Source: Bacteroidota bacterium
GTDB taxonomy: Bacteria > Bacteroidota > Ignavibacteria > Ignavibacteriales > Ignavibacteriaceae
DNA: 64,000 nucleotides
Direction: 5' to 3'
Assembly (NCBI GenBank): GCA_020161395.1
Contig: JAIUOE010000008.1
Coordinates: forward strand, 62,001 to 126,000
In this document: positions 30,209 through 33,328 of the stretch, one piece after another
How positions within the stretch are numbered: the stretch's first letter is position 1
Layout of the letters: the number at the start of each line of letters is the position of its first letter
Translations under genes and position numbers: made by a program
Notes under the pieces: model-generated
The model's input: the letters and a program-made list of their open reading frames with translations, nothing else
Databases searched by the model: none
What the model was told of the DNA's origin: nothing

Positions 30209-30267
30209 TTTAGCTATGATCTATTAGCTATGAACTATGAGCTGGTAGTGATTTAGTTTTAGTGTTT

Positions 30268-30300
30268 AAGGCTGCTCGAAAGGGTGGCCTTTTTTATTTT
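30268..30300 (+). terminator. Rho-independent terminator after ahcY
   Basis: AAGGCTGCTC pairs with GGGTGGCCTT (10 bp using G-T pairs) around a GAAA tetraloop, followed by TTTTTATTTT. It lies 60 bp after ahcY and closes the metK-ahcY unit. Confidence 0.85.
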
Positions 30301-30399
30301 AAAGCGGATTTTACTTGCTGAAAATTATTGAATTTCTGCATTATTGAATAATTGCATTAATTTGTTCTTCATTTTTTTTGATTTTTGGAACAGAAACCA

Positions 30400-31014: not shown

Positions 31015-31022
31015 GGGGATGC

Positions 31023-31070
31023 AATAATCCAATAATCCAATAATCCAATAATGCAGTAATGCAATAATCT
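31023..31070. repeat. 8-bp tandem repeat, six units (AATAATCC)
   Basis: Three exact AATAATCC units are followed by AATAATGC, AGTAATGC and AATAATCT. The 48-bp array fills the gap between the YciO-like gene and the 3' end of the DUF4143 ATPase gene and ends 7 bp from the latter's stop. Confidence 0.85.
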
Positions 31071-31077
31071 TTTGTTC

Positions 31078-32250
31078 TTAGACGAGTGCGGTGAGGAATT
31101 TCGAAGCCGACATAACCCGAATGTTATCTTTAATCAGGTCAATATCGTTTTTCATTACAATCTGATAGTTGAAGGGAATTTTTAAGCGATCCCGGAAAAA
31201 GGCGATATTTTTTGACGGACTCGTGTCACTTAACTTCACTTCCACACTGAACCACGGTTGATTTTTATAAGTAACCAAAAAGTCAACTTCTTTTTTGTCC
31301 ACATTTCTCAAATAAAACAAATCAAGTTTATAGCCCTGATTCTCTACCATAAAATTAATGAATTTAAGCAGATGCGAAGCTATCATGTTTTCGAAACGCT
31401 GCCCGGGTTCCTCGACTTGTGACCAGTCATACATATACACCTTCGCCTCCTTTTTTAACGATCTGACTTTGGATGAATGATAAGGATAGATTCTGAAGGT
31501 ATAGTAGAACTCTTCAAGAATATTAATCCAACTCGATACGGCGCGGTGGCTGATTTCAAGATCTTCTGAAATGGCATTTATCGAAAGTGGTCCTCCTGCT
31601 TTTGATGGCAGCATATCACCAAGCAATTTCATGTTTGAAATATCTCTGATATCCTGTGTATCGCGGATATCTTCCCGAAAAAGTCTCTCCAGTCTTTCAT
31701 TTTGCCATCTTCTCAGCACTCTTTCATCCTGTTTTACAAATGGTTCGGGAAATCCTCCAAACTTGTAAAGTGCTTCAAGATTTTCATTAGAGCCATTGTG
31801 ATCGAGCACCAGTTCCGTACCTGGGTGGATGCTATTGGCTCTTCCTTCAATCTCTGCCAGCGAGAAGGGATGAAGAGTGTAATAGTGATATCTTCCCTGA
31901 AGTGAATCTCCCCCTTTACGGTAGATATTTAACCGGGCACTTCCGGTAACCAAAATGCTGTATTTTTCTTTCCAGGAATCAAATATTCCCTTTATGAAAC
32001 TTTTCCAAATTCTGTATTTATGTATTTCATCTAGAATAAGGAGGGAATCATCGCCGGGAAGGATGTAGTCTTTAAGGGCTTTTCGGTGGTCGGAATTGTC
32101 CCAATTGTAGTAATGCCATTTGGGGAAGTTTTGAGTGATAAACCTTTTAGCCAGGGTGGTTTTACCAACTTGTCGTGCGCCTCCAATGAAAACCATCTTT
32201 TCTTTGAGGTCTTCTGTGATAGAGTCAGTCAGATAACGATTCAGTTCCAT
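31078..32250 (-). CDS. AAA ATPase with DUF4143 C-terminal domain
   Basis: A 390-residue protein. The N-terminal AAA_14 ATPase has Walker A GARQVGKT (residues 24-31), Walker B LLILDE (70-75) and a sensor segment SILVTGSARLNIY. The middle contains a winged-helix-like part (LSINAISEDLEISHRAVSSWINIL). The C-terminal DUF4143 domain carries a PD-(D/E)XK-like arrangement: KKEVDFLVTYKNQ followed by SVEVKLSD. These genes are common singletons in many genomes, often amplified, with no settled function. Upstream (32285-32348) is a tandem palindromic repeat, downstream an 8-bp tandem repeat. All motifs appear intact. Confidence 0.9.
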   Translation of the reverse strand: MELNRYLTDSITEDLKEKMVFIGGARQVGKTTLAKRFITQNFPKWHYYNWDNSDHRKALKDYILPGDDSLLILDEIHKYRIWKSFIKGIFDSWKEKYSILVTGSARLNIYRKGGDSLQGRYHYYTLHPFSLAEIEGRANSIHPGTELVLDHNGSNENLEALYKFGGFPEPFVKQDERVLRRWQNERLERLFREDIRDTQDIRDISNMKLLGDMLPSKAGGPLSINAISEDLEISHRAVSSWINILEEFYYTFRIYPYHSSKVRSLKKEAKVYMYDWSQVEEPGQRFENMIASHLLKFINFMVENQGYKLDLFYLRNVDKKEVDFLVTYKNQPWFSVEVKLSDTSPSKNIAFFRDRLKIPFNYQIVMKNDIDLIKDNIRVMSASKFLTALV

Positions 32251-32284
32251 TTTTCATGCTCTAAAATTGATTCCTCGAAAAATA

Positions 32285-32348
32285 CGAACATTTTTGCTTT
32301 AAAGCAAAAAAACACGCGAACATTTTTGCATTAAAGCAAAAAATCACG
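32285..32348. repeat. Two 32-bp tandem repeats with central palindrome upstream of the DUF4143 ATPase
   Basis: Copy 1 is 32285-32316 and copy 2 is 32317-32348, directly adjacent and differing at two positions. Each begins CGAACA, ends CACG and holds a dyad: copy 1 has the perfect palindrome TTTTTGCTTTAAAGCAAAAA, copy 2 has one change (GCATT). The array fills nearly the whole gap between the cysteine-synthase stop (32351) and the ATPase start (32250), placing the dyads 39-85 bp upstream of its start codon. An operator or protein-binding site is a natural reading. Confidence 0.85.
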
Positions 32349-32350
32349 AA

Positions 32351-33328
32351 TTATATCAGGTTATTCGCAGTTAGCCAGTCATCGTTATAGACGGTGGAGA
32401 GATACTTATAGCCTGAGTCGCAGATGACGGTACAGATGACTGAGGGCTCCTTCAGTTGTTTTGCAAGTGACAAGACACCGAAAATGTTCGCACCCGATGA
32501 CCCACCGGATAAAATTCCTTCCTCAGCCACAAGCAGAAAAGTATGCTCAATGGCCTGTTTATCAGTCACCTGAATCATGTCATCGAGTACCTGGAGTTGG
32601 GCTGTTTGAATAAGAAATTCGTCACCAAGTCCTTCGATTAGGTATCGGGAGGGAGTTCCAATCTTTTTGGTTTTAAAGTACTCGTAAAAAATTGAACCCA
32701 CCGGATCAACCCCCACAACCTTGATGTCGGGATTTTTCTCTTTGAGATATCTTCCTGCACCAGTGCATGTTCCGCCTGTTCCCACACCCGCCACGAAATA
32801 GTCGATTCTTCCGTTCATCTGTTGCCAGATTTCAGGACCGGTTGACATGTAGTGAGCCTCGTTGTTGTCGAGGTTGTTGTGCTGATCGATATAGAAAACA
32901 TTGGGGTCTTCAGCGGCGAGTTTGGCAGCGAAATTGTTGTACGACTCGGGATGTTCCGGCGGAAGGGATGCATCAACCTTGATAACATCCACACCCATTA
33001 TTTCGAGCATCTTAATTTTTTCTTTGGAAGTAGTGTTCCTTATAACGATTTTTAATTTGTAGCCTTTCTGTTTACAGACAATTGCCAGCCCCATAGCAGT
33101 ATTACCCGAGGAATTCTCGATAATGGTATCACCCGGTTTTATTTTCCCTTCCTTTTCCGCTTTTTCGATCATGTACATGGCGATGCGGTCTTTAATACTC
33201 CCGCCGGGATTCATAAATTCCAGTTTAGCCCACACTTCATGATTTGTAAGTTTTGAAATATTTTCCAATTTTACGCAGGGGGTTCTCCCTATGGCTTTGA
33301 GGAGGTTGAGATTTGAATTAAATGTCAT
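32351..33328 (-). CDS. Cysteine synthase/cystathionine beta-synthase family enzyme
   Basis: A 325-residue fold-type II PLP enzyme. The PLP lysine lies in MNPGGSIKDRIAMYMIE, the substrate loop is IIENSSGNTAMGLAI, the phosphate-binding glycine loop is AGVGTGGTCTGAGRYL, and a GGSSGAN motif follows. It lacks the C-terminal CBS regulatory domains. HYMSTGPEIWQQ resembles cystathionine beta-synthases more than CysK, so the enzyme may make cystathionine or cysteine from activated serine; I cannot choose. It follows the secreted-protein gene by 17 bp on the same strand. Confidence 0.9.
   Translation of the reverse strand: MTFNSNLNLLKAIGRTPCVKLENISKLTNHEVWAKLEFMNPGGSIKDRIAMYMIEKAEKEGKIKPGDTIIENSSGNTAMGLAIVCKQKGYKLKIVIRNTTSKEKIKMLEIMGVDVIKVDASLPPEHPESYNNFAAKLAAEDPNVFYIDQHNNLDNNEAHYMSTGPEIWQQMNGRIDYFVAGVGTGGTCTGAGRYLKEKNPDIKVVGVDPVGSIFYEYFKTKKIGTPSRYLIEGLGDEFLIQTAQLQVLDDMIQVTDKQAIEHTFLLVAEEGILSGGSSGANIFGVLSLAKQLKEPSVICTVICDSGYKYLSTVYNDDWLTANNLI

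Follow-up and report, generated by a model that had tools for sequence, protein, structure and literature searches.

An AAA_14-DUF4143 gene in the 64,000-nucleotide stretch of Ignavibacteriaceae DNA analysed here (the window) is preceded by two tandem repeats with nested palindromes, and the locus raises the question of what such repeats do at the head of a gene for a putative ATPase-nuclease. We consider it probable, from comparison of sequences across the family, that these tandem dyads form a private operator through which the DUF4143 protein itself controls its own gene. Positions of the features concerned are collected in Table 1.

Table 1. Features at the DUF4143 locus, in window coordinates
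Feature	Position	Strand	Remarks
AAA_14-DUF4143 gene	31078..32250	(-)	390 aa; STAND-like ATPase, winged helix, PD-(D/E)XK-like domain (predicted); PADLOC PDC-S01
Candidate operator unit 1, gene-proximal	32285..32316	(-)	32 bp; perfect 20-bp dyad at 32291-32310
Candidate operator unit 2	32317..32348	(-)	32 bp; dyad at 32323-32342, one broken pair
Promoter-like TTG-N20-TATTTTTC	32277..32307	(-)	overlaps unit 1; placed by eye, weak
Internal 16-mer GCGGTGGCTGATTTCA	31543..31558	(+)	recurs in the G003 deletion scar
Six 8-bp AATAATCC/AATAATGC units	31022..31069	(.)	genome-wide intergenic repeat

The two 32-bp units differ at 2 positions. The dyad of the first, TTTTTGCTTTAAAGCAAAAA, is perfect, while that of the second, TTTTTGCATTAAAGCAAAAA, has a single broken pair; both are perfect in the sister genome G003. 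A reading of this DNA made without database searches (the sequence-only reading) had described two direct repeats of exactly 32 bp in length with one perfect and one mismatched 20-bp dyad, and this description is confirmed. For the 160 bp that precede the ATG, the tandem score was 27 at offset 32, which 10,000 dinucleotide shuffles failed to reach even once (maximum 15.5). Taken alone, the best dyad is less extreme (44 of 10,000 shuffles reached its score) because the region is AT-rich. The double repeat with its nested palindromes is real, and far above chance. The same reading had the repeats filling the whole promoter gap, which holds for most of the 100 bp between the ATG and the stop codon of the upstream cysK-like gene (32351-33328), but not for the 34 bp next to the ATG, which lie outside the repeats. 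The promoter-like element listed in Table 1 loosely resembles the known Bacteroidota-type promoter, and is regarded as putative. No other site with at most 2 mismatches to the 20-bp motif was found in the organism's own genome. Between dnaN-like and lipoprotein-like genes (L015, ~1500-1570) lie two copies of a dyad-containing 40-bp repeat (ATTTTACTTTAAAGCCAAAATGG), which is 3 mismatches from the motif and probably unrelated to the operator.

The downstream flank proved to be of a different kind. Six 8-bp units are indeed present there (90% match), ending 8 bp, rather than the 7 bp first given, from the stop codon of the gene; however, a 24-bp pattern of these octamers has 114 matches genome-wide as against 0 for its reversed control. 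The array therefore belongs to a genome-wide repeat family and is ruled out as part of the system, and the earlier notion of repeats on both sides as a single feature is abandoned. Such octamer arrays form a large intergenic family, with a further example upstream of a gene in L010. Other repeats were also encountered, among them short imperfect intergenic tandem repeats in the window at 30210-30360 (TTAGCTATGAACTA, ATTATTGAATAACTGC) and, at a separate locus (L008), a near-identical stretch (CACCCAAAATAATCTTATAAAATCTTAAATTTTACCTTATTTCGAC, two differences) that flanks the DUF4143 gene on either side.

The protein itself carries the signatures expected of its family, scoring 95.4 bits with AAA_14 (PF13173) and 81.7 with DUF4143 (PF13635), against curated cut-offs of 27 and 28.1, and matching seven PADLOC PDC-S01 models (best 7.8e-53, residues 3-369). 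The sequence-only reading had noted intact Walker motifs and a nuclease-like acidic...ExK arrangement, and over 40 homologues these residues are indeed invariant or nearly so: Walker A (G24, G29, K30) and Walker B (D74, E75) in the ATPase, and, in the nuclease-like E321-x-D323 ... E337-x-K339, the three acidic residues without exception and K339 in at least 90% of sequences. An AlphaFold2 model built from 40 sequences (mean pLDDT 94) predicts a winged helix at approximately residues 204-256 (pLDDT 94). Residues 1-280 of the model superpose on the archaeal ATPases 2qen (Z 15.2; 243 residues, rmsd 5.4) and 2fna (Z 14.4), and then on NLR and CED-4 proteins, in the STAND arrangement of an AAA core followed by a winged helix. 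The C-terminal sensor repeats of STAND proteins are absent from the 390 residues, which end instead in the nuclease-like domain, and on this account the protein was not assigned as a full STAND protein. Modelled alone, the C-terminal 125 residues (pLDDT 94.8) adopt an alpha-beta-beta-beta-alpha-beta PD-(D/E)XK core, with matches of moderate Z to Can2 (Z 8.5; 3.4 A, 118 residues), McrC (Z 7.8) and EcoT38I (Z 7.5), the top match being a TBP-interacting protein (2czr, Z 8.9). When solved structures were searched by sequence, the protein on its own gave no match, and its profile gave weak Card1 and Can2-type matches to the nuclease part. The model shows a PD-(D/E)XK nuclease fold with its catalytic residues kept, in which DNA or RNA cleavage is putative.

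Whether the repeats are a peculiarity of this locus was addressed with DUF4143 genes drawn from the same phylum and from a multi-phylum sample that included viral contigs (bacterial and viral members), in which the region from -160 to +20 was compared with that of other genes on the same stretches under naive start calling. A significant dyad or tandem repeat (shuffle p<=0.01) was found for 145 of 196 DUF4143 genes (74%) and for 65 of 447 controls (Fisher 8e-49), the controls being genes of the same loci that were neither matched for function nor drawn from a comparator ATPase family; the remaining 51 DUF4143 genes gave no significant signal in this simple test with its naive start calls. The rate holds after clustering of proteins at 50% identity (66 of 92 positive), and the phylum sample and multi-phylum sample agree when taken separately. 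Spacing is strict: a repeat offset of exactly 32 bp, approximately three helical turns, occurs in 39 DUF4143 and 5 control genes, with harmonics at 64 and 66, and a second, smaller class at 22-23 bp (14 versus 3 gene-offset counts) has a harmonic at 44. In DUF4143 genes the centres of significant dyads fall between -60 and 0 relative to the ATG; in controls they are scattered. In the multi-phylum set, TTGAC within -70 to -15 was present in 34 of 101 DUF4143 genes and 5 of 151 controls, often at the junction of two dyads, whereas the Bacteroidota promoter box TAnnTTTG was set aside as a signal (21 of 95 versus 35 of 296, a small difference only). These comparisons suggest that candidate operators are a family-wide property of most DUF4143 genes in many bacterial phyla, usually with a private sequence.

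Conservation of the operator letters is confined to close relatives. Orthologues at ~62% identity have the same 32-bp tandem dyad, and those at ~40% identity have a related layout in other letters; more generally, pairwise operator similarity is at chance level below ~40% protein identity and rises above 50%. Covariation of individual domains with the operator was weak over the range of 28-80% identity (standardized betas 0.14 for the winged helix, 0.08 for the nuclease and -0.09 for the ATPase), too weak for the DNA-reading domain to be named in this way, the winged helix not being singled out.

Taken as a mechanism, these features would be accommodated if the DUF4143 protein, most likely via its winged helix, bound a pair of dyads (or a larger number) that share a face of the DNA and lie across or next to the core promoter, and thereby controlled (most likely repressed) transcription of its gene. 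With the dyads 32 bp apart, binding would be cooperative and by an oligomer, which is what one would expect of a STAND-like ATPase, and a distinct operator sequence in each subfamily would allow several paralogues to reside in one cell without need for cross-talk. From the perspective of defence, the ATPase part might sense an infection signal, upon which the protein would leave the operator, its level would rise and the nuclease would be unleashed. Autoregulation, one of the roles first suggested for the repeats, is supported at the sequence level as a family-wide property by the architecture of the repeats, their enrichment, exact 32-bp period and position, the association of dyad with gene, and conservation only among close orthologues; from these we infer self-binding, repression, oligomerisation, induction by infection, a defence role and nuclease activity. 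Against it count the 51 genes without a significant signal, the weak covariation and the bias among dyad mismatches discussed next. In addition, the winged helix of STAND proteins often serves the nucleotide switch and not DNA binding, and, as described below, operators persist without the gene, such that their retention cannot rest on the protein alone.

A rather unlikely alternative is that the dyads act in RNA, as 5' leader hairpins blocking the ribosome site or as an attenuator. Among mismatches inside dyads, G-T is mildly more frequent than A-C (36 and 17; P = 0.013), the bias that pairing in RNA would produce, and RNA may therefore contribute; the 100 nt upstream fold modestly better than shuffles (z -2.05); and in a class of 37-bp dyads from another genus the dyad ends 6-7 bp before the ATG, a position compatible with action on the leader. 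However, DNA is favored because of the position over or next to the promoter, the exact 32-bp tandem period with its harmonics, the existence of direct-repeat classes that lack a dyad, and the -35-like TTGAC boxes within the repeats, at dyad junctions; the last three place a large part of the signal ahead of the point where the transcript probably begins. No Rfam family matched anywhere in the window.

That a different host regulator binds the dyads would agree with the persistence of orphan operators after gene loss, and is improbable on other grounds. The organism's own genome has nine DUF4143 genes, nearly all of which, judged by eye, have upstream repeats or dyads of visibly different sequence, where one regulator acting in trans should yield one motif; and operator likeness follows the likeness of the DUF4143 proteins above 50% identity.

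The orphan operators themselves were traced in related genomes. Among 79 relatives the 20-bp motif was found at 15 sites in 12 genomes, versus 1 for the reversed control, a search that accepted well-kept motifs only and so overstates retention. Beside it lay intact orthologues in 4 genomes, a disrupted gene in 1, a C-terminal remnant in 1 (remnants being present in G227 and G237) and a deletion scar in 1; 5 genomes have the motif without any gene, one of them (G226) with a single, non-tandem site that is probably due to chance. The refuting outcomes named in the sequence-only reading, absence of the motif from orthologues or its random placement at AT-rich sites, were not observed, orthologues at ~62% identity carrying the tandem dyad. 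Among the wider relatives, those with tandem dyads and no gene are G015, G018 and G251. In the sister genome G003, where the YrdC gene at the locus is 100% identical, the DUF4143 gene is gone and both dyads are kept; the scar holds the 16-mer GCGGTGGCTGATTTCA, which in the window lies within the gene, and each join shows microhomology: the gene was once present there and then deleted. G002 has a solo dyad and no gene, and G001 has neither gene nor operator. Four DUF4143 loci distinguish G000 from its sister genome G003. At each of them the operator is kept, and the coding sequence is either missing or has been exchanged, in one case for a 185-aa ORF without a Pfam match and in another for an Mrr-type gene that lies on the opposite strand. 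The latter slot (L281, G000:C1:232500-238500), which holds DUF4143 in G003, also has a 53-bp repeat array and two more ORFs nearby; as to defence context, the locus in the window is flanked by the YrdC-like and cysK-like genes, and this one homologous slot is occupied by Mrr in a sister genome. In the other genus, a search of 65 genomes for the 37-bp dyad class gave 16 sites in 15 genomes (reversed control 0), and 13 of the 15 loci read adjoin a DUF4143 gene or a recognisable piece of one: 11 have the gene, its ATG in each case 6-7 bp from the dyad (10 are full-length, and the one in L291 breaks off at 180 aa), a further locus has a fragment detected by HMM, and three gave no HMM match. In one of these three (L289) the start of the gene is recognisable and disrupted; the other two (L290, L293) retain the operator and were read by eye as deletions.

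We read operators without the gene as the result of frequent loss of a dispensable gene, although the operator may possibly take an active part in swapping. The four G000/G003 loci, with a nuclease of Mrr type among the replacements, would suit dyads that serve as recombination or homing sites, the nuclease acting beside them and the coding sequence being swapped there. This we think very improbable, given that the G003 scar has the form of an ordinary deletion, G001 lacks gene and operator alike, the decayed genes of the other genus fit plain loss, and the search for orphan motifs was biased to well-kept sites. Mobility, as raised by the sequence-only reading, survives only in the sense that the coding sequence is often gained, lost or replaced; no pair of inverted repeats was found bracketing the gene at the locus, and a mobile element or DNA transposon with flanking repeats is ruled out. 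That the repeats are AT-rich sequence arisen by chance, or terminate the cysK-like gene 2 bp past whose stop codon they begin, is scarcely credible in view of the shuffles, the hairpin without a following U-run and the tandem motif in orthologues upstream of their own DUF4143 genes (L019, L021), and is refuted as a general account by the enrichment over control genes. A more speculative extension of the preferred autoregulation, to which we attach little likelihood, is that the sequence read at the promoter is also monitored by the nuclease or ATPase switch, the operators being private docking sites that outlive the gene, in a slot that is vacated time and again and then taken by different defence genes, as in the Mrr swap.

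Among known systems, the C proteins of restriction-modification systems bind paired dyads (C-boxes) at their own promoter and so autoregulate the expression of a potentially harmful nuclease. The paired dyads at the gene's own promoter and the putative autoregulation of a possible nuclease are alike; C proteins, however, are small separate regulators, whereas the regulator candidate here is the ATPase-nuclease itself. Papers on C-boxes are cited in PMC3874152. The neighbours being cysK-like and YrdC-like, with no small controller and methylase, a C-protein regulated restriction-modification system was rejected. A type II toxin-antitoxin operon was likewise rejected: there is no partner gene, the cysK-like gene on the same strand being metabolic and separated by the operator, and the downstream YrdC-like gene convergent. 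Silencing of defence genes via repeated promoter sites is described for AbiEi antitoxin autoregulation (PMC7319586) and for RptR (PMC12255303), both of which have a separate regulator gene, unlike the single-gene DUF4143 system. STAND/NLR-type ATPases (2qen PABY2304, 2fna SSO1545, CED-4, plant NLRs, Avs) share the ATPase and winged helix and differ in having C-terminal sensor repeats where the DUF4143 protein has a nuclease-like domain. The excerpts of PMC12988326 consulted present PDC-S01 as a PADLOC candidate for single-gene phage defence, an ATPase fused to PD-(D/E)XK, ranked fourth commonest among candidate defence systems of prokaryotes; they give phage defence candidate status and mention no operator or autoregulation. 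For one DUF4143 gene, TT_P0211, PMC4406477 reports a 6.6-fold rise when a plasmid was present. Within the open-access literature, as distinct from subscription papers and preprints, and in the text portions it made available, we found no mention of such operators at DUF4143, COG1373 or PDC-S01 genes, and hence no earlier report of them.

PDC-S01 is a very common candidate anti-phage family for which the open-access sources found, as far as consulted, give no validated mechanism. If most of its genes have an operator that is private and strictly spaced, this would offer a direct handle on the family, as a DNA target in vitro and as a reporter for inducers, and the natural pairs of protein and operator would lend themselves to the mapping of specificity. 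If the proposal is true, the candidate effector of this single-gene system would also regulate itself.
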